Shown here: piece after piece, positions 2,843-10,301 of the stretch
Layout: each line of letters opens with the position of its first letter
Numbering within the stretch: position 1 is the first letter of the stretch
Source of the DNA: a virus
Direction: 5' to 3' (one strand)
Length of the DNA: 24,648 nucleotides
IMG/VR virus record: IMGVR_UViG_3300032287_001588
Span: 1-24,648 of that record
The notes under the pieces: generated by a model
Told to the model about the DNA's origin: nothing
The model's database searches: none
The model's input: only the letters and a program-made list of their open reading frames with translations
Position numbers and translations under genes: made by a program

Positions 2843-3658
2843 ATGACGTTAGAAAATATCAAATTTGTTGACCAATGGAGCGACGAACCTAGGTTAACGC
2901 GAATCAGTCCAAGCGGGTTGAAAAAAATGAAGGAAAGCCCGATGACCTATTGGGATAATTACGTAAACCCTGACCGACCCGAGAAAACAGAAACCCAGTC
3001 CATGCGATTTGGTTCTGCAACCCACATGTTTTTGAATCAGCGCGAGGAGTTCCACAAAAAATACATGATTGCCCCAAAGTTTGACCGAAGAACCAATGAT
3101 GGGAAACGCTTAGCGGCTGAATGGGAAGCACTTGCAACCGCCAATAACGCCACAATTATAACCGATCCTGAAATGGAATCGGTAAACCTAGCCTCCGAAG
3201 TTGTGAAATTTTCACCGCTAGCGAATCGGATTATATCCAGCTTGTCCAATGTTGAGCAGAAAGTAGAATTTAACCACAATAGACGGTTAATCCTAGACGG
3301 TATTTGCAAAGAGTTTAAATCGGTTGTTGAAGTCAAGACAACCAAAGACGCAAGCCAAGCAGGCTTTGCAAAAGAGGCGGCCAATCTAGAGTACTTCATG
3401 CAGTTAGCCGACCAAGTACGCGCCACGGGATCCGATGGTGCCATAGTAATTGCGATTGAAAACAAAAGACCGTACAATATCAACACATTTTTTATCGCAA
3501 GCGACGACCCAGCATTGATGGTTAACTACGAGTTAATCGATTTGCACGTTGCACGTTGGGAGGAATGCAAGTTGAAGTATGGCGAATCGCGCTGGCCTTC
3601 GTACACCGACGGCAAAGAGTTTATCCAGTTGAACGCGCCTAAGTGGTATTTTTTGTAG
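2843..3658 (+). CDS. PD-(D/E)XK nuclease, RecE-like exonuclease
   Basis: Early recombination nuclease. The features expected of phage PD-(D/E)XK exonucleases are visible in order: an S-P-S-x-L-K-x-M helix near residues 22-30, RFGSATHMFL with G57 and H61, LDGICKEF with D152, VVEVKTTKDAS with E163 and K165 (the E-x-K half), and an EYFMQLADQ helix around Q187. Length of 271 aa fits RecE-like C-terminal domain proteins. It would resect dsDNA ends to give ssDNA for the RecT-type annealing protein encoded 1.6 kb downstream. First gene of the rightward operon, directly behind its own promoter. A Cas4-like or other role for the fold is less likely in this context. Confidence 0.85.
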   Translation: MTLENIKFVDQWSDEPRLTRISPSGLKKMKESPMTYWDNYVNPDRPEKTETQSMRFGSATHMFLNQREEFHKKYMIAPKFDRRTNDGKRLAAEWEALATANNATIITDPEMESVNLASEVVKFSPLANRIISSLSNVEQKVEFNHNRRLILDGICKEFKSVVEVKTTKDASQAGFAKEAANLEYFMQLADQVRATGSDGAIVIAIENKRPYNINTFFIASDDPALMVNYELIDLHVARWEECKLKYGESRWPSYTDGKEFIQLNAPKWYFL

Positions 3659-3666
3659 GGGGAGTT

Positions 3667-3978
3667 ATGGAAAATAAATATAGTAAAGACGATTTGATTA
3701 GGGTGGCAATTTATTGTTGGAATATTGCATCAAATCCAAAACATGGGAAAACTTACAATGTGAACGAAATAGTAGAAGATTATATTGAGCGAATTAACCT
3801 TGGGGAAAATAAAAGTTTTTGCAAAATATATAATGGTTATTTTATCATTGCTATGAATAAAACCGATTACGATTACAAGGTAAGAAAAATTAATATTGGA
3901 GATACAAAAGGGTTTTACCACATATCTAATTTGCCAATAGAAGTTTTAAAACAAGCTGTTAATTATGAAGAACAATAA
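3667..3978 (+). CDS. hypothetical protein, 103 aa
   Basis: Start chosen at ATG 3667 (MENKYSKDDLIRVAIYCWNI), 9 bases after the nuclease stop and preceded by a GGGGGAG purine run. A more upstream ATG (3643) overlaps the nuclease gene and would add a hydrophobic stub (MVFFVGG). The protein is soluble, Tyr/Asn/Lys-rich and more AT-rich than the nuclease gene. Its N-terminus resembles the small-protein array downstream only loosely (KDDLIRVAIYCWNIA versus KENFLKAAEFCEVS), so it may be a distant member. Function unknown. Confidence 0.65.
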   Translation: MENKYSKDDLIRVAIYCWNIASNPKHGKTYNVNEIVEDYIERINLGENKSFCKIYNGYFIIAMNKTDYDYKVRKINIGDTKGFYHISNLPIEVLKQAVNYEEQ

Positions 3979-4213
3979 GCCAGTAATCGCAGCAATGTTG
4001 ATCGGAATGGTTAGCAGCTGCAACACCAAACCAACAACTGTAACCAAGGAAACTGAACATGTAATCTCTTTAGACGGAGTTCGTGGAATTACATTAAAAG
4101 TAGTTGAAGTTGAAGGATGCGAGTATTTAGTAGGTGGTTATGACCGCAGTGGACTACTTACCCACAAAGGCAATTGTAAAAACCCTATTCACCCAGAACA
4201 CACAAGGAGGTAA
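3965..4213 (+). CDS. small lipoprotein, 82 aa
   Basis: The N-terminus MKNNKPVIAAMLIGMVSSC is a lipoprotein signal with lipobox V-S-S-C and Cys19 as the predicted lipidated residue. The mature part has a compact pattern LKVVEVEGCEYLVGGYDRSG followed by LLTHKGNCKNPIHPEH, a short conserved-looking module I associate with hypothetical Bacteroidetes phage proteins. It overlaps the previous gene by 14 bases. An envelope-exposed lipoprotein made early could act on superinfection or the host surface, but that is inference. Confidence 0.7.
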   Translation: MKNNKPVIAAMLIGMVSSCNTKPTTVTKETEHVISLDGVRGITLKVVEVEGCEYLVGGYDRSGLLTHKGNCKNPIHPEHTRR

Positions 4214-4219
4214 CAAACT

Positions 4220-4453
4220 ATGAAACTATATACTAAAGAAAACTTTTTAAAAGCCGCTGAATTTTGCGAAGTGTCAATGATTGACGCTAGGTACATTATT
4301 AGTAGGATTGATGAAGTAACAGACCCCATCGAACTACCAAGTGATGAGGAGATAAAAAAAGAATCATTGAAAACTGATTTTGAATATACTTTTCGTAATG
4401 GTGCAATGTGGATGCGTAATAAAATAGGAGGAGGCAACAATGAGCAACAATAA
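4220..4453 (+). CDS. array family A protein, copy 1, 77 aa
   Basis: First of three MKLYT-starting proteins. It has a helical N-terminus (MKLYTKENFLKAAEFCEVSM), a central PIELPSDEEI motif and a C-terminal GAMWMRNKIGGGN motif. Copy 2 shares both outer motifs while the residues between them differ. SD-like AAGGAGGT (4204-4211) lies upstream with 9 bases to the ATG, and the stop TAA of the lipoprotein gene is within it. It overlaps the following family B gene by 14 bases. No membrane segment; function unknown. Confidence 0.68.
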   Translation: MKLYTKENFLKAAEFCEVSMIDARYIISRIDEVTDPIELPSDEEIKKESLKTDFEYTFRNGAMWMRNKIGGGNNEQQ

Positions 4454-4691
4454 ACAACAAACGGCAGTGGATTTATATCGTATAAAAATAAGCATTTTGA
4501 CCACGGATTTATTTAATGAAAAAATCAGCGGTAACCAATTTCGCACTCTTGAAAGGGAGGCGTACGAACAAGCCAAAGCAATGCACAAGGAGGAGATAGA
4601 ACAAACCTATCAAAAAGGTTATAATGATGCAGATTTTTCGTATTATGACCCCGAACAATACTACAACGAAACATACGGAGGTAACAAATGA
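4440..4691 (+). CDS. array family B protein, copy 1, 83 aa
   Basis: Starts MSNNKQQTAVDLYRIKISIL and ends EQYYNETYGGNK; the same two ends occur in the second B gene, while the middle is different (helical, Glu/Lys-rich here). SD-like GGAGGAGG (4427-4434) lies 5 bases before the ATG, inside the A1 coding sequence. The stop overlaps the next ATG as ATGA. I recognise the QTAVEW-type start and QYYNET-type end as recurrent in hypothetical proteins of Bacteroidetes phages and prophages, with no known function. Confidence 0.68.
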   Translation: MSNNKQQTAVDLYRIKISILTTDLFNEKISGNQFRTLEREAYEQAKAMHKEEIEQTYQKGYNDADFSYYDPEQYYNETYGGNK

Positions 4692-4945
4692 AACTATACA
4701 CAGAATTTGAAGTAAAATTTGCTATAGATATAGCAAGATGTCAACCCGATAAAACTTTTGATGAAGTTTTAGAAGAAGTTACCTCCGTATGTTTCCTAAC
4801 CCCCATCGAACTCCCAAGTGATGAGGAGATAGAGGAATATGTGGATTCTGAGGGATATTGGGGAGGTTGGTCTCCACAATATTTCGAGGGAATTATAGAA
4901 GGTGCAAAATGGATGCGTGATAAAATTAAAGGAGGTAACAAATGA
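4688..4945 (+). CDS. array family A protein, copy 2, 85 aa
   Basis: Shares with copy 1 the start MKLYT, the TPIELPSDEEI motif and the end GAKWMRDKIKGGN; the intervening 30-residue segments are unrelated or highly diverged (CQPDKTFDEVLEEVTSVCFL here). The DNA for the PIELPSDEEI block (4801-4831) matches 4324-4354 at 30 of 31 bases. SD GGAGG at 4677-4681 is 6 bases before the ATG. The C-terminal Gly-Gly-Asn-Lys is encoded by the next gene's SD region (GGAGGTAACAAA). Confidence 0.7.
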   Translation: MKLYTEFEVKFAIDIARCQPDKTFDEVLEEVTSVCFLTPIELPSDEEIEEYVDSEGYWGGWSPQYFEGIIEGAKWMRDKIKGGNK

Positions 4946-5193
4946 GCAATAAACAACAAACGGCAGTGGAGTGGTTTCTTGACCAATTAATTGAACACCG
5001 AATTATCATTGTTGATAAAACAACATACCAAGTCAAATACAAACATGAAATCCTTTTAGAACAAGCCAATGAAAGACATAAGCAACAAATTATAAACGCT
5101 GTTGATGACCAAAATAATTATGATTCTTGGCCGAGTTCAATTCCCACATTGGGTGAACAATACTACAACGAAACATTCGGAGGTAACAAATGA
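4942..5193 (+). CDS. array family B protein, copy 2, 83 aa
   Basis: Starts MSNKQQTAVEWFLDQLIEHR and ends EQYYNETFGGNK, like the first B gene and of equal length, but the interior is different. Bases 4947-4970 are identical to 4448-4471. SD GGAGG (4931-4935) stands 6 bases before the ATG, and the stop overlaps the next start as ATGA. Predicted soluble and helical; no catalytic motif seen. Confidence 0.68.
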   Translation: MSNKQQTAVEWFLDQLIEHRIIIVDKTTYQVKYKHEILLEQANERHKQQIINAVDDQNNYDSWPSSIPTLGEQYYNETFGGNK

Positions 5194-5306
5194 AACTATA
5201 TACAGAAGAACAATTAAAATTAATGATTGATGATGCTCACAATGGAGTTGATGGGTATTATGACAAATACTGGCTTGAAGTAAAACAGGAAATTGAAAAA
5301 TTATGA
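5190..5306 (+). CDS. array family A protein, short third copy, 38 aa
   Basis: A 38-codon frame starts MKLYTEEQLKLMIDDAHNGV and ends QEIEKL at a TGA that overlaps the ATG of the RecT-like gene (ATGA). It keeps the family start and SD (GGAGG 5179-5183), but lacks the PIELPSDEEI and GAxWMR motifs, so it is either a truncated copy or a reduced member. Good SD and coupling on both sides suggest that it is translated, perhaps mainly to feed ribosomes into the downstream gene. Confidence 0.55.
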   Translation: MKLYTEEQLKLMIDDAHNGVDGYYDKYWLEVKQEIEKL

Positions 5307-5938
5307 CAACCGAAATAACACAACACAATCAAATCCCCGAATCAGAAACATTCGGGCTGCAATCATTCGACCACGCTCAACGTGTAGCGAAGGCGATTGC
5401 AAGTTCTTCTATTGTTCCGGACAAGTACCAGAACAATATACCCAACACGTTAATAGCTCTTGAAATGGCAAATCGAATTAAAGTAAGTCCGCTAATGGTA
5501 ATGCAGAATTTGCACATCATACAAGGCCGCCCATCATGGAGTTCAGCTTTTATTATTGCCTTGCTCAACTCATGCGGTAGATTTGAGCCGATAAAATTTA
5601 AAAGCTTCCCTCAAAGTAGCCGTGCTTATTCCATTGAACGCGCTACGGGTGAAACAATTTACGGTCCTACCGTTACCATTGAAATGGCAAAGGCGGAGGG
5701 ATGGTTTAACAAACCAGGCAGCAAGTGGAAGACAATGCCTGAATTGATGTTGATGTATCGTTCAGCGGCTTTCTTTGGCAGGTTATACGCGCCTGACCTA
5801 ATGATGGGAATGCACATGGATGACGAACTTCGTGACGTTACAAATTCGCAATCTACCCATAATAGAGTTGCCGATTTGAACGAGAAATTAAATAACGAAT
5901 TCATTGACGTGCCCCCAACGCAGAACGCAACCACCTAA
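5303..5938 (+). CDS. RecT-family ssDNA annealing protein
   Basis: Phage recombinase that anneals complementary ssDNA. The pattern of short RecT/Bet-type proteins is visible: AIASSSIVPDKYQNNIPNTL near residues 31-50, MANRIKVSPLMVMQNLHIIQ (compare the usual A-x-x-x-G-L-x-P-L), G-R-P-S-W-S-S, then TIEMAKAEGWFNKPGSKWKT and PELMLMYRSAAFFGRLYAPD near residues 125-170. Length of 211 aa is at the short end for RecT but normal for this branch. Translationally coupled to the preceding 38-codon frame (ATGA). Likely partner of the RecE-like nuclease and SSB in this window. Confidence 0.8.
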   Translation: MTTEITQHNQIPESETFGLQSFDHAQRVAKAIASSSIVPDKYQNNIPNTLIALEMANRIKVSPLMVMQNLHIIQGRPSWSSAFIIALLNSCGRFEPIKFKSFPQSSRAYSIERATGETIYGPTVTIEMAKAEGWFNKPGSKWKTMPELMLMYRSAAFFGRLYAPDLMMGMHMDDELRDVTNSQSTHNRVADLNEKLNNEFIDVPPTQNATT

Positions 5939-5949
5939 CACCTAACATT

Positions 5950-7188
5950 ATGGAAAACCAAGAAATAACAATTATCACTAACATCGCACAGGTTCAACAG
6001 ACGGTTGAACAAAGCGGAATCGAACCGAAAAAAGGCAAAGGAATATTGGAAGTATTTACGCCTTACTTTTCACAGCTGGAACAATTGGACGCGGAAATCA
6101 AAACACTTCCGTCCGAGAATCCAAGTAAAGAGGAAATTAAAAAAGCCTACGATTTACGCCAAATGCTGAAAAAGAATCGCACAGCCGCCGAGAAAATTAA
6201 GGATGACGGTAAACGAAATATCTTGATCGAGGGCAAATTGTACGATCATTTATTTGGCATCGTTCGAGACACCTCCAAGCCACGCGAAAGCCAATTGGAA
6301 GCGATTGAAAAATGGCACGAAATTCAAGAGGCCAAACGCCTAGACGAATTGGAATCAACTCGAAAGCAATTTATCAGCATCAATTTTCCCGACGTTAACA
6401 CGTTGTTTACCGACTTCCGTAAAATGGACGAAGCCGCTTATAATGACTACGTTAACCAATTGAACTACGCGAAGCAAGAGAAAATCAGAATTGAAAACGA
6501 GCGTATTGCAGCCGAAAAAGCCGCAGCCGAAGCCGAGGCGGAACGATTGCGACAAGAGGCAATTGCATTAGCAGAAGCCCAAGAGCAAGCGCGCATTGAA
6601 GCCGAGGCACGCGCCAAGGCAGAAGAAGAAAAACGCCAAGCCGAGGAAGCAGCAAGAGCAGCAGAAGAGGCAACCAGAGCCGCGGAGGAAGCCGCAAAAG
6701 CAGCAGAGGAAGAACGCCTAGCGGCCGAACGTGCGCAAGCGGAAGCAGAGGCCGAGAAGCAGGCGGCAATTCTAGCGCAAGAAAAAGCCGAACGCGAACG
6801 CATCGAAGCGGAGAAGCAGAAAATTGAAGCGGAGAAACAAAGAATCGAAGCAGAAAAATTACGCGAAGCCGCGGAGTTGGCAGCGCAAAAATCAGACGCG
6901 GCAGCATTTGCCATGCAGAAGCAGCTGGAAGCCCAGCAAAAAGCAGCGCAAGAAGCGGCACGCATAGAAGCTGAACGGGTTGCAGCGGAGCAAAGGGCTA
7001 AGGCCGAGGAGATTAAACGCGCAGCATTGGCACCGGACAAAGACAAGTTGGCGTTTTTAATTACGCAAATTAATGGGATTCAAATGCCTGAACTGCAAAC
7101 TCCAGAGGCTGGCAAAATTACAGCAAACGTGAAGCTGTTGTTGGGCAAGGTTACAAATTACATTATCCAGGAAAGCGACAAACTTTAA
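5950..7188 (+). CDS. long Ala/Glu-rich coiled-coil protein beside RecT
   Basis: Three parts are visible. Residues 1-160 are a charged helical domain (KKGKGILEVFTPYFSQLEQL, a KKNRTAAEKIKDDGKRN segment). Residues about 175-355 are an unbroken Ala/Glu/Arg/Lys helix with degenerate repeats such as AEEAARAAEEATRAAEEAAK and IEAEKQKIEAEKQRIEAEKL. Residues 357-412 form a small C-terminal domain (LAPDKDKLAFLITQINGIQM). The arrangement resembles coiled-coil proteins often encoded next to recT in phages (DUF1351-like). TolA-like annotations would reflect composition only. It may serve as a recombination accessory or DNA-end organiser. Last gene of the rightward operon. Confidence 0.75.
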   Translation: MENQEITIITNIAQVQQTVEQSGIEPKKGKGILEVFTPYFSQLEQLDAEIKTLPSENPSKEEIKKAYDLRQMLKKNRTAAEKIKDDGKRNILIEGKLYDHLFGIVRDTSKPRESQLEAIEKWHEIQEAKRLDELESTRKQFISINFPDVNTLFTDFRKMDEAAYNDYVNQLNYAKQEKIRIENERIAAEKAAAEAEAERLRQEAIALAEAQEQARIEAEARAKAEEEKRQAEEAARAAEEATRAAEEAAKAAEEERLAAERAQAEAEAEKQAAILAQEKAERERIEAEKQKIEAEKQRIEAEKLREAAELAAQKSDAAAFAMQKQLEAQQKAAQEAARIEAERVAAEQRAKAEEIKRAALAPDKDKLAFLITQINGIQMPELQTPEAGKITANVKLLLGKVTNYIIQESDKL

Positions 7189-7213
7189 CCGCCTTCCCAG
7201 CCTAGCTACCCAA

Positions 7214-7783
7214 CTACTCCCCCTCAATCAACCCCTTAGCGTATTTATCGAAATCCTCTAATCGGTTTACCCATCCCCTCCCGAAATCTTTAAAGGAGGG
7301 GATTTTTTTTAACCACTGGATTCGATGCGCGTACAACTCTCTGTACACTTCGCCCTCGCCTTTTTCTTTTAAAGCCGCTAACAAGGCCGCTAAAGTTTGC
7401 GCCCCAAATCTCCCATCGGGTACGAACTTGTAATATCCTAAATTGTACAGATAGTATTGCAGCTGCCGTGGTGCATTCACTCCACTAGCCCAAGCCCAAT
7501 CGGCTAGAAATTCCCCAATGGCTTGACTTGGAATACTAGCCGCGCCGACTAGATTCCAGTACCATAGATATACTTGTTTCCATTTGTCGAATGGCATAGC
7601 GTAGAAGCCCTTAATATCCTCGCCAAAATGAAATTTCCAAGTAGCCCAAGTTACCCCCATATTGGTATGATACCCCGACCCATCGGGTACACAATGTTTA
7701 CTAGCTGAATCCTTTTTGTCCTTAGAAAGTTTACCCTCCCATTTCTTTATATAGTCAAAATTGACTTTGTTAATATCGGCCAT
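7214..7783 (-). CDS. endolysin, GH108-type N-acetylmuramidase with C-terminal binding domain
   Basis: Last gene of the late operon. Residues 8-50 fit the GH108 family: catalytic Glu candidate E16 in KKWEGKLS, then a PDGSGYHTNMGVTW stretch in place of the usual D-P-G-G-x-T-N-x-G-I. Residues about 85-135 (GEFLADWAWASGVNAPRQLQ and a VPDGRFGAQTLAAL motif) fit the PG_binding_3 domain that accompanies GH108. Length of 189 aa is typical. No signal peptide, so release needs a holin. The downstream part also carries a plus-strand terminator, which encodes KKIPSFKDFGRGW on this strand. Confidence 0.85.
   Translation of the reverse strand: MADINKVNFDYIKKWEGKLSKDKKDSASKHCVPDGSGYHTNMGVTWATWKFHFGEDIKGFYAMPFDKWKQVYLWYWNLVGAASIPSQAIGEFLADWAWASGVNAPRQLQYYLYNLGYYKFVPDGRFGAQTLAALLAALKEKGEGEVYRELYAHRIQWLKKIPSFKDFGRGWVNRLEDFDKYAKGLIEGE
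7273..7310 (+). terminator. rho-independent terminator of the rightward operon, inside the endolysin gene
   Basis: Perfect 9-bp inverted repeat ATCCCCTCC (7273-7281) and GGAGGGGAT (7295-7303) with a 13-base loop, followed immediately by T7 (7304-7310; eight T counting 7303). The T run is only on the plus-strand side, so it is oriented to end rightward transcription that started at the divergent promoter. It lies 85 bases past the last rightward stop and within the opposing endolysin coding sequence. Confidence 0.78.
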
Positions 7784-8207
7784 AATATTTCTTTATTGCT
7801 ATTACTAAGATTGCCAAAATAACCCCCAAAGCACACAACCATTTTACAAGCGTTGTAAGCGATGCAAATTTCTCACGGGTATAAGTCACCCACTTACGAT
7901 GCGTTATTGTCTTAGTGATTGTTTTTGTAGGTATTTTGGATGTTATGTTTGCTTTGAACTTATTGCCGTTCCGGGTAAGTTCTAATTTGCACCCATTGGT
8001 ATCAATGACGATTGTATCAATTACAGCCATGGTGAATGTGTCGACGCTTTTCAGCGTGTCCGTTTTCCAAAGCGTATCGGTTTCAACTCGAACTGAATCG
8101 CGGCAGATACTTGGGTCTTTTTTGCAGGCTTTTTTTAAATGGTATTCCGCGCTGCATGAGGACAAGGCCAAGCCCAGCACTAGCGAAAACGCAAATCTAT
8201 TCTTCAT
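7770..8207 (-). CDS. unimolecular spanin candidate (lipoprotein with C-terminal membrane anchor)
   Basis: Start chosen at ATG 8207: MKNRFAFSLVLGLALSSC gives a strong lipoprotein signal with lipobox L-S-S-C and Cys18. An upstream ATG at 8237 would bury the signal behind extra residues. The periplasmic part (19-115) is Thr/Asp/Lys-rich and beta-like, and residues about 120-138 (LVKWLCALGVILAILVIAI) are a C-terminal membrane segment followed by KKYYGRY. An outer-membrane lipoyl anchor plus an inner-membrane helix in one chain defines u-spanins, which fuse the two membranes at the end of lysis. Its place between a holin candidate and the endolysin supports this. Overlaps both neighbours. Confidence 0.72.
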   Translation of the reverse strand: MKNRFAFSLVLGLALSSCSAEYHLKKACKKDPSICRDSVRVETDTLWKTDTLKSVDTFTMAVIDTIVIDTNGCKLELTRNGNKFKANITSKIPTKTITKTITHRKWVTYTREKFASLTTLVKWLCALGVILAILVIAIKKYYGRY

Positions 8208-8412
8208 CTTTTTCAACCGTAAAAAAGTTGGAAACAAACTTTCCTAAGCCCCCAATAATTGCGCATGCAATCATGACCTTGGGTTCATTCATATTGAATC
8301 CAGCAACTAGAATACTAGCCGCTGCAAGACTATCCCCAAGCACTCTCACGCGTTTAGGTGTTGGACTAAAATAGGGTTTGAATTTCACCCTTGACCTCTG
8401 TTTGGTTTCCAC
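8197..8412 (-). CDS. small membrane protein, holin candidate 1, 71 aa
   Basis: Basic N-terminus (METKQRSRVKFKPYFSPTPK), then two hydrophobic stretches, about residues 28-40 (SLAAASILVAGFN) and 46-60 (VMIACAIIGGLGKFV), with a short turn between them and an acidic end VEKDEE. Two short helices, small size and position just before the spanin and endolysin suit a holin or antiholin. I recall similar YFxPTPKR-type proteins in Bacteroidetes phage lysis regions, without a proven role. Confidence 0.6.
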   Translation of the reverse strand: METKQRSRVKFKPYFSPTPKRVRVLGDSLAAASILVAGFNMNEPKVMIACAIIGGLGKFVSNFFTVEKDEE

Positions 8413-8501
8413 GATTTATGTTTATTAATGTGTTTGGTGTGCCGTCCTAACTTGCGTTTTGGCTTGGATTTAAACGTGCTTATTGCGCTATTTTTTGCCA
8501 T
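8385..8501 (-). CDS. tiny basic protein, 38 aa
   Basis: ATG at 8501-8499, stop TGA at 8387-8385. The product starts MAKNSAISTFKSKPKRKLGR and continues with HTKHINKHKSWKPNRGQG: about one third Lys/Arg/His and no acidic residue. It overlaps the upstream gene by 14 bases and the downstream holin candidate by 28 bases, filling what would otherwise be a 75-base hole in a tightly packed operon. It resembles a small basic protein seen in the same place in related phages, from memory. It could bind nucleic acid or membrane phosphates; function unknown. Confidence 0.6.
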   Translation of the reverse strand: MAKNSAISTFKSKPKRKLGRHTKHINKHKSWKPNRGQG

Positions 8502-8679
8502 CTAATGCCTTGATTTTTTTGCTCCAATAAACAATCGCAAATAAACCTGATACAATACCAACAAGTGCCAACACAAATGCGGCTACGGGCTGCCAAGTTT
8601 GGGAAAAATGTATAACCGTTGCGCTTCCACTTACTGCGGTTGCTATCGTTGCGGTGGTGTCGTTATCAATGTGTTTCAT
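8488..8679 (-). CDS. small membrane protein, holin candidate 2, 63 aa
   Basis: Thr/Ala-rich N-terminal 25 residues (MKHIDNDTTATIATAVSGSA), one strong membrane helix at about residues 31-52 (PVAAFVLALVGIVSGLFAIV), and a positive C-terminus YWSKKIKALDGKK. Single-helix topology and lysis-cassette position would suit a pinholin or holin partner. Overlaps its upstream neighbour by 14 bases and the basic protein gene by 14 bases. Confidence 0.58.
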   Translation of the reverse strand: MKHIDNDTTATIATAVSGSATVIHFSQTWQPVAAFVLALVGIVSGLFAIVYWSKKIKALDGKK

Positions 8680-8923
8680 CAGTCGGGTTAAAATCGTTAA
8701 ATCGTTCTAAATATAAATCTTCCATCCCCCAAAATGTGTGTACTCCGCAAGGTTCGGGAAATACCTCGTAAATCAATAAATCATCGTTGGGTTCTTCGTT
8801 AAATAAAATATCAACGGCAAATAATGTATTAATCACACCCAATTCAACAATATGACAATTCTCTAATGTGGGTTTGATTTCTTCCCACTTGTCAATCGGT
8901 AATTCAAATTTTGCAAATATCAT
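8666..8923 (-). CDS. hypothetical protein, 85 aa
   Basis: Acidic soluble protein beginning MIFAKFELPIDKWEEIKPTL, with a LLIYEVFPEPCGVHTFWGME stretch near residues 49-68. No signal peptide or membrane helix. It lies between the receptor-binding candidate (4 bases upstream) and the holin candidates, a place often occupied by small tail-fibre chaperones, but no family resemblance supports that role. Confidence 0.6.
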   Translation of the reverse strand: MIFAKFELPIDKWEEIKPTLENCHIVELGVINTLFAVDILFNEEPNDDLLIYEVFPEPCGVHTFWGMEDLYLERFNDFNPTDETH

Positions 8924-8927
8924 AGTA

Positions 8928-10301
8928 TTATGTTGTTAAGGTTATGCAATCTGTATCCGAAAGCGGAATGCGGAAAGGTGACATTGTTTTAATCCATCTT
9001 GGTATCCCTGCACCTGTTCCATTAATAAATTCCATTATTGTTGTTGTAAATGCAGTTGCACTCACTTGCTTAGTGCCGTTCACAAACACATCAGCACTTG
9101 TTCCATTCCACTTGATTGCAATTTTAATAGTGTCGGTTGTTGTCGTGAATAAATTAGTAGTCGCACTTGCAATGATTTTTTGAATAACTTGTCTACCCGT
9201 TCCAGTATTCACAATCAAAAATCCATTGGCAATTGTTGAACTTGAATCGCCAATTCCTATACCTTGTGCTGCGGCATCTCTTGTATATGCAATGTTGTTG
9301 AGCATTTCAATAAATAAAGTTCCACCACTTGCAGAAATTAAACCATTGGTGTAAATGTTATTTCGAGTAAATGTATCTACCAATCGTGTTGCTGCGGCAT
9401 TGGTTGTATTGATATATGTAGTTACAAATTGCCCAAATTCAAATTGTGGTGCTGCTATTCTTATTGTAAAATCATAAGATTGTCCGTTAACAACTGTCAC
9501 ATAAACTCCGGGTTGAGCCCTTGCAACGGTTGCCCCCCCTGGTAATGTCATTACTCTATCATAACGAGTTAATGTAGTTGATTGAGTGATGCTAGGGGTA
9601 GCAACAATAGAACTTACCGAAAATCCTGCTGAGGTGTTAGTAGCAACCCCCAATCTATAATTACTCGGTAACGCTGAACCTGAAATTGATGTATAAAAAC
9701 TGCTTGTCCAAATCTGACCATCAGCGGCGACAATTTGATTGTTTGCCTCCCAAAATAAACGTATGGTTGTTGCTGTTGCAGTACCACTATATCGAATGTC
9801 CACATAATCAAGTCCATTTTGTGTCCCTACGGATGCAACTTGCAATGTCAATCCTGCCGTTGATTGGCTTGCCCAGTTTGTCGGCAAAGTGCCTGGAGTA
9901 CCTGCAACCGCCCCCTGCATAGTGCTATTGCGCAAACTATTTGTTCTCTGCGGTTCTAACAATAACGCTGGGCAACTGCCAAACATATACGATAAACGTG
10001 GTACGTTAGCCGCAACACTTCCGATATTACCATTAGATTGCGTTCTGTTTGCAACACTATTTCTTGACCACGTTAAATCACCATTGCTATTGGAGGGTAA
10101 TACAGCATAAGCAACACCTGCCTTATATCCGCTGGGAATTAATAATAACGATGCGGATTGTAATAATAATGATGCAGCGGCAACACAATTAAGTGCCTCA
10201 ATCGTTCCACCATCGGCAATCACACGGGATGAATAAGACCCTGCAAATCCACCCGCAAAGTGTACACGATCAATGCCAACGCCTACCCCTATTCTCGGCA
10301 T
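8928..10301 (-). CDS. tail-end lectin-like protein, receptor-binding candidate
   Basis: 457 aa, rich in Ser, Thr, Ala, Asn and Gly. The N-terminus MPRIGVGVGIDRVHFAGGFA looks like an attachment segment. Around residues 101-127 is SYMFGSCPALLLEPQRTNSL, close to the P-x-L-L-L-E-x-Q-R-T-N motif of phage tail proteins with concanavalin-A-like domains. Two beta-sandwich-like regions follow (about 130-290 and 315-457; the second contains LFIEMLNNIAYTRDAAAQGI and TIKIAIKWNGTSADVFVNGT), consistent with laminin-G/LamG-type carbohydrate binding. It probably binds the host surface. Encoded directly after the tail tip and a small structural gene. Confidence 0.75.
   Translation of the reverse strand: MPRIGVGVGIDRVHFAGGFAGSYSSRVIADGGTIEALNCVAAASLLLQSASLLLIPSGYKAGVAYAVLPSNSNGDLTWSRNSVANRTQSNGNIGSVAANVPRLSYMFGSCPALLLEPQRTNSLRNSTMQGAVAGTPGTLPTNWASQSTAGLTLQVASVGTQNGLDYVDIRYSGTATATTIRLFWEANNQIVAADGQIWTSSFYTSISGSALPSNYRLGVATNTSAGFSVSSIVATPSITQSTTLTRYDRVMTLPGGATVARAQPGVYVTVVNGQSYDFTIRIAAPQFEFGQFVTTYINTTNAAATRLVDTFTRNNIYTNGLISASGGTLFIEMLNNIAYTRDAAAQGIGIGDSSSTIANGFLIVNTGTGRQVIQKIIASATTNLFTTTTDTIKIAIKWNGTSADVFVNGTKQVSATAFTTTIMEFINGTGAGIPRWIKTMSPFRIPLSDTDCITLTT

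Follow-up and report, generated by a model that had tools for sequence, protein, structure and literature searches.

Phage mosaicism is usually described between genes. In T4-type phages, PeSL cassettes use repeated short expression signals as homology for shuffling small genes in a plastic region (Arbiol 2010; Comeau 2014, as presented in PMC4503421), which is also the general appearance of the array described here. Lambdoid phages provide a second likeness, since their homeologous recombination leaves mosaic joints in short similar flanks, with Red or Rad52-like recombinases promoting the exchange (PMC2327257, PMC3945230). A third is the shuffling of phage protein fragments, which resembles the array as domain mosaicism at the protein level; the survey that described it foresees more shuffling among unknown proteins (PMC10684548). 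We analyzed a 24,648-base virus record (the window) with an array of small genes at positions 4220–5306. Here the unit of exchange appears to be half of a tiny gene, and the joints are fixed at the nucleotide level. The explanation that we consider well supported by the comparisons below is seam-targeted intragenic cassette exchange, in which the array exemplifies a gene stock common to many uncultivated Bacteroidota phages. We place the probability of this explanation as a whole at about 0.82.

The array consists of five small ORFs on the + strand in the order A, B, A, B, A (Table 1). The first two overlap by 14 nt, and all later array junctions are 4-nt ATGA overlaps, as is the junction between the last A gene and the RecT gene (5303–5306). 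These coordinates confirm the alternating set of overlapping genes described in the initial annotation. Its direct repeats of 31, 24, and 53 bases at the conserved ends were all recovered: a 31-nt repeat with 97% identity (4324/4801), a 24-nt repeat with 100% identity (4448/4947), and a 67-nt repeat family with 90% identity (4653/5155) that contains the 53-nt repeat. A further repeat of 41 nt has 83% identity (4400/4901). We refer to the conserved stretches as seams and to the sequences between them as cores. Within the array, nucleotide identity of the A seams is 0.67–0.83 (leader), 0.86 (mid), and 0.83 (end); values for the B seams are 0.83 (leader) and 0.97 (end), with a mid seam that is weak in the window itself (0.60). 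Core identities are 0.50 and 0.39 for A and 0.54 and 0.51 for B, approximately the level of unrelated sequence after gapped alignment, in agreement with the earlier description of interiors that differ almost completely. The GGNK end noted for family B is indeed shared and reads GGA GGT AAC AAA TGA. The common end GGAGGTAACAAATGA gives GGNK and a stop codon in one frame and a Shine-Dalgarno (SD) sequence, spacer, and ATG in the next. The shared C-terminus therefore doubles as the ribosome site of the following gene, and GGNK need not be a feature of the protein. Strict alternation is peculiar to the window phage and was rejected as a general rule, with adjacent pairs elsewhere being BB (76), BA (36), AB (32), and AA (10). 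Downstream, a minus-strand endolysin (phrog_315) and a tail-like protein (phrog_5939) are encoded at 7214–10301, with the array and the lysis/tail genes on opposite strands in the window.

Table 1. Coordinates of array genes, seams, and neighboring genes in the window
Feature	Position	Strand	Remarks
Gene 1, family A, 77 aa	4220..4453	+	GGAGG upstream; N-core as in L041 (92% protein identity); C-core unlike any found
Gene 2, family B, 83 aa	4440..4691	+	Begins in the last 14 nt of gene 1
Gene 3, family A, 85 aa	4688..4945	+	Matches L001 exactly over its first 90 nt; C-half unrelated
18-nt insertion in gene 3	4778..4795	+	In-frame; exact reverse complement of 4668–4685 (end of gene 2)
Gene 4, family B, 83 aa	4942..5193	+	Apparent chimera: N-half as in L051/L062, C-half as in L036
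Gene 5, 38 aa	5190..5306	+	Family A start and family C end (KYWLEVKQEIEKL); ATGA overlap with RecT start
Seam: B end, SD, and start of next A gene	4653..4711	+	Copy at 5155–5213
A mid seam (TDPIELPSDEEI), PIELPSDEEI	4319..4354	+	Copy at 4796–4831
A end seam (GAxWMRxKI, GGAGG, and start)	4400..4440	+	Copy at 4901–4941
B leader seam (NKQQTAV)	4448..4471	+	Copy at 4947–4970
B mid seam (EQAKAMHKEE)	4566..4595	+	Weaker copy near 5059–5088
Lipoprotein-like gene, same shuffled neighborhood	3965..4213	+	Relatives in other phages have the B leader
RecT-like annealase (phrog_561), context	5303..5938	+	PHROG match
Exonuclease VIII / DUF3799, context	2843..3658	+	Upstream of the array

Genes 3, 4, and 5 of the window appear to be mosaics themselves. 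In gene 3, the 90 nt identical to locus L001 are followed by the 18-nt insertion, the mid seam, and an unrelated C-core. The insertion is absent from L001–L003, and its inverted sequence suggests template switching between seams. The N-half of gene 4 is common to many phages and has ~94% DNA identity to L051, and the C-half has ~98% DNA identity to L036 (both estimated by eye on the alignment); in protein, the cores are 100% identical to L051/L062 (N) and L036 (C). Gene 5 was rejected as a simply truncated A gene, its last 13 codons being the end of family C (phrog_21441), with 34 of 42 nt matching the best family C sequence versus 15 on average for other genes. Neither A nor B has a PHROG match.

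Using single proteins and alignments as queries, we identified ~250 loci in IMG/VR, and a single genome scan identified four contigs, three of which are from Bacteroidota MAGs. Profile searches yielded 114 distinct A and 316 distinct B proteins. All relatives are metagenomic sequences. There was no credible GenBank match for A, B, and two relatives among 50,697 phage records, a DNA search returned only short chance matches, and sequence searches of Pfam, PHROG, NCBIfam, PADLOC, and PDB placed A and B in no family, with marginal matches dismissed as chance. Each fetched locus has one to six copies in any order, usually grouped in one part of a record. The relatives are not single-copy genes conserved throughout, though in the retrieved DNA a single copy was present at 97 of 251 loci. 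Carrier phages differ widely in size, with some records of 200–295 kb, and partner families in the same neighborhoods include family C and a lipoprotein-like neighbor (phrog_19356).

Cores were compared using 94 A and 301 B proteins from the ~250 loci, each split at the mid motif, with N- and C-cores clustered separately at 70% identity. The B proteins have 191 N types and 197 C types in 249 combinations, and most recurring types occur with more than one partner (30/38 N, 24/27 C); the same is true for A (12/15 N, 16/17 C). Since the window's gene had served as the initial query for B loci, the analysis was repeated on exact-seam loci. The exact 23-nt A mid seam GAACTACCAAGTGATGAGGAGAT is present in 106 IMG/VR stretches, and loci chosen solely by this sequence provided 82 usable contexts, in which 55 N and 59 C types form 75 combinations. 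Base identity around it drops to background within ~30 nt on each side. The exact 23-nt form of the B leader is present in at least 120 IMG/VR stretches with 65 different downstream types, and the leader stands in front of A, C, lipoprotein, and many further genes, often immediately ahead of the gene's own Met. Reassortment is not free, with 23 combinations observed among recurrent B types versus 39 on shuffling.

Chimeric pairs, defined as one half ≥60% and the other <30% identical, were counted among pairs with a similar half, the controls being half-by-half comparisons of all other 55–300-aa genes from these loci. Chimeric pairs represent 36% of B and 14% of A pairs, compared to 2.3% for short and 6.6% for longer control genes. 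Half of the short-control chimeras are family C (MTPKEKA...YWxxVKxEI), which appears to belong to the same shuffled stock as A and B. Hybrids combining a B start with an A end, or an A start with other ends, were also seen. The largest gene seen with the MSNNKQ leader is in L227 (6974–8863), where the leader is fused before a ~630-aa secreted-type protein. A further shared N-terminal module (MNDKIKxLLxxAExxDAIAxNKWRIENREQLRKERK...) is found fused to B genes as well as to lipoproteins and membrane proteins (L132, L133, L138, L151, L098, and others).

Mosaic breakpoints, recorded per kb as points where homology ends or resumes between collinear relatives, were looked for at the repeats and are enriched 6–20x at most seams. 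Values are 13.3 for the B leader, 11.7 for the B end, 7.3 for the A leader, and 4.3 for B mid, compared to ~0.65 for other DNA; enrichment at the A mid seam is just ~2.5x. This measure is partly built in, as seams are what unrelated copies share, although that sharing is itself the question addressed. Cores are kept less often than other DNA between collinear relatives (0.31–0.62 versus 0.76 of bases). Among genes with unrelated cores, the fraction of identical codons is 0.72–0.82 in A seams (0.38–0.46 expected) and 0.61–0.72 in B seams (0.45–0.51 expected), with just 0.51–0.59 in cores; in the seams, for example, Leu CTA reaches 0.91 against a background of 0.13. Agreement this far beyond codon usage indicates conservation of the seams at the DNA level in addition to the protein level. 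Two loci, L054 and L089, have flanks, leader, and mid seam in common and differ in their cores, with each form recovered essentially unchanged from three metagenome assemblies. A 1.1-kb tandem copy in the array region of L156 (~5238–7450) is absent from L159, in contigs that are ~99.65% identical; these are jumbo-phage contigs and both records encode bS21. Core reassortment, chimeric pairs, seam breakpoints, frozen codons, same-site swaps, and the window mosaics strongly support the cassette shuffling at seams proposed in the initial annotation, and the joints appear to lie in sequence shared by both parents, as in homologous or homeologous phage mosaicism.

Each small gene would then be a mosaic in which leader, mid, and end seams alternate with an N-core and a C-core, each seam comprising 20–50 nt of almost invariant sequence. 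During co-infection of a cell, or on pairing of two copies within an array, strands may anneal at seams and cores may be exchanged, added, or lost. An inserted cassette would stay in frame and be translated, given that the end and leader seams also supply the ribosome site and the overlapping start of the next gene. The agent could be any available annealing or RecA-type recombinase, such as RecT here and ERF or the host's enzyme elsewhere. Red- and RecA-dependent recombination require ~30 bp, and Red tolerates 22% divergence (PMC2327257), so annealing-type homologous recombination at seams of this length fits; we infer this mechanism, with co-infection as the setting, from the products of recombination rather than from recombination events. 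The downstream RecT, previously suggested as the shuffling agent, is a candidate in the window phage but cannot be the general agent, since a similar RecT occurs in two of 25 whole records with these genes and RecT-like genes are near the array in few loci. Other recombinases, and the exonuclease seen in the window, are patchy elsewhere, with ERF in 3/25 and RecA in 2/25 records above the cut-off. None of these three families is common to carriers among the 25 records, and a single shared recombinase family was rejected.

Several other explanations could account for parts of this pattern. Ordinary paralogy, with old duplications whose ends are kept for the needs of the protein and whose middles evolve fast without recombination, agrees with ends and a mid motif that are conserved as protein and with AlphaFold models that are helical folds of fair confidence. 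We consider it very unlikely, because cores that are identical in protein and nearly so in DNA are paired in other phages with cores of no relation, seams show frozen synonymous sites, and the leader precedes unrelated families; core reassortment, the window mosaics, and the exact-seam contexts contradict any version without recombination. Different phages might also have been joined at short shared seams during metagenome assembly, given that every relative is metagenomic, that seams are as long as assembly k-mers, and that just five A and eight B combinations have confirmation from a second, diverged genome. Such an artefact is unlikely. Both forms at the L054/L089 site were assembled repeatedly, some core combinations recur in diverged genomes, flanks stay collinear across swaps, and the frozen seams themselves require a biological cause. 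Repeated short conserved sites flanking variable cassettes would also be expected of a dedicated site-specific or retro-element system (a diversity-generating retroelement, integron-like system, or invertase), but this is the least probable of the alternatives, as site sequences differ between leader, mid, and end and between families, a tyrosine integrase is present in one of 25 records, and a reverse transcriptase (RVT_1) is present in none.

Seams could instead be selected for their own RNA or translation function (SD, A-rich start region, coupling), with recombination merely finding conserved words. This is compatible with seam-targeted exchange, and the probabilities of the two are not exclusive; we regard it as possible but doubtful. 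GGAGG precedes 49% of A/B genes compared to 3.9% of controls; in the window it precedes every one of the five array starts (4195–5193) and none of eight other genes. At B gene ends it is commonest where the next start overlaps (0.71 vs 0.11–0.43). However, mid seams serve no start codon and are frozen too, GGAGG is retained at A gene ends that have no start nearby (0.80), and Bacteroidia ribosomes normally ignore SD sequences unless bS21 is absent (PMC9976891). Ordinary genes of carrier loci rarely have an SD, as expected for Bacteroidota, which makes SD-led gene arrays in this lineage a puzzle. bS21 is encoded in two of 25 whole records with A/B genes and was rejected as a common companion of arrays. 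GGAGG is either carried along with the seam or the mark of a separate gene class. It is improbable, though conceivable, that seams are dedicated or self-perpetuating joints through which the Bacteroidota phage community shares one combinatorial half-gene library, and that strong-SD genes form a separately regulated class best translated when bS21-lacking ribosomes rise during infection.

Selection for diversity in the cores, as earlier suggested, found no support. Within a core type dN/dS is 0.17–0.31, which indicates purifying selection, and positive selection was rejected at this level. The proteins are thus functional, and their diversity comes from old constrained modules changing partners rather than from rapid point mutation. 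The AlphaFold models have pLDDT values of 84 (A) and 79 (B). The A model has four helices; the loop joining helices 2 and 3 holds the mid seam, and the halves thus correspond to two predicted helical hairpins. The B model has a helix, a small hairpin, a long helix containing the mid seam, and a final helix. Structure searches with these models matched just uncharacterized proteins of uncultured phages and no known fold. The anti-defense or surface role suggested earlier gained no positive evidence from PADLOC, Pfam, PHROG, NCBIfam, or PDB, PADLOC being a library of defense rather than counter-defense proteins. Tentatively, the products may be small early accessory proteins that act on the host.

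With seams nearly identical across hundreds of uncultivated Bacteroidota viruses, seam-targeted exchange would leave every virus with a distinct set of small hybrid proteins. A recombining stock of constrained modules is one suggested source of the endless small unknown proteins of phages. With joints fixed at nucleotide resolution in phages that differ greatly in size, it is possible to count and date the swaps.

Compared to described systems, the array shares with PeSLs a conserved motif that is repeated between genes of a plastic region and is common across phages. PeSLs, as PMC4503421 presents them, are promoter-terminator motifs by which whole genes are exchanged, whereas the array seams are coding and carry a ribosome site and start overlap. 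They lie inside overlapping ORFs, where they encode GGNK, KLYTE, PIELPSDEEI, and NKQQTAV, and they appear not to be intergenic early promoters with stem-loop terminators. Unlike the PeSLs of that source, one array seam lies mid-gene, so that half-genes are exchanged. Diversity-generating retroelements differ in having an element-encoded reverse transcriptase, which the 25 records lack. The flanks used by lambdoid phages are moderately diverged, whereas the array joints are a fixed stock of 20–50 nt, reused within a genome and across hundreds of phages and also inside genes. The proteins in the survey of fragment shuffling (PMC10684548) have detectable domains and known functions, whereas those of the array are small and uncharacterized and have fixed DNA joints. 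The array is an unusually clear case of seam-targeted intragenic exchange, a variant of known phage mosaicism.
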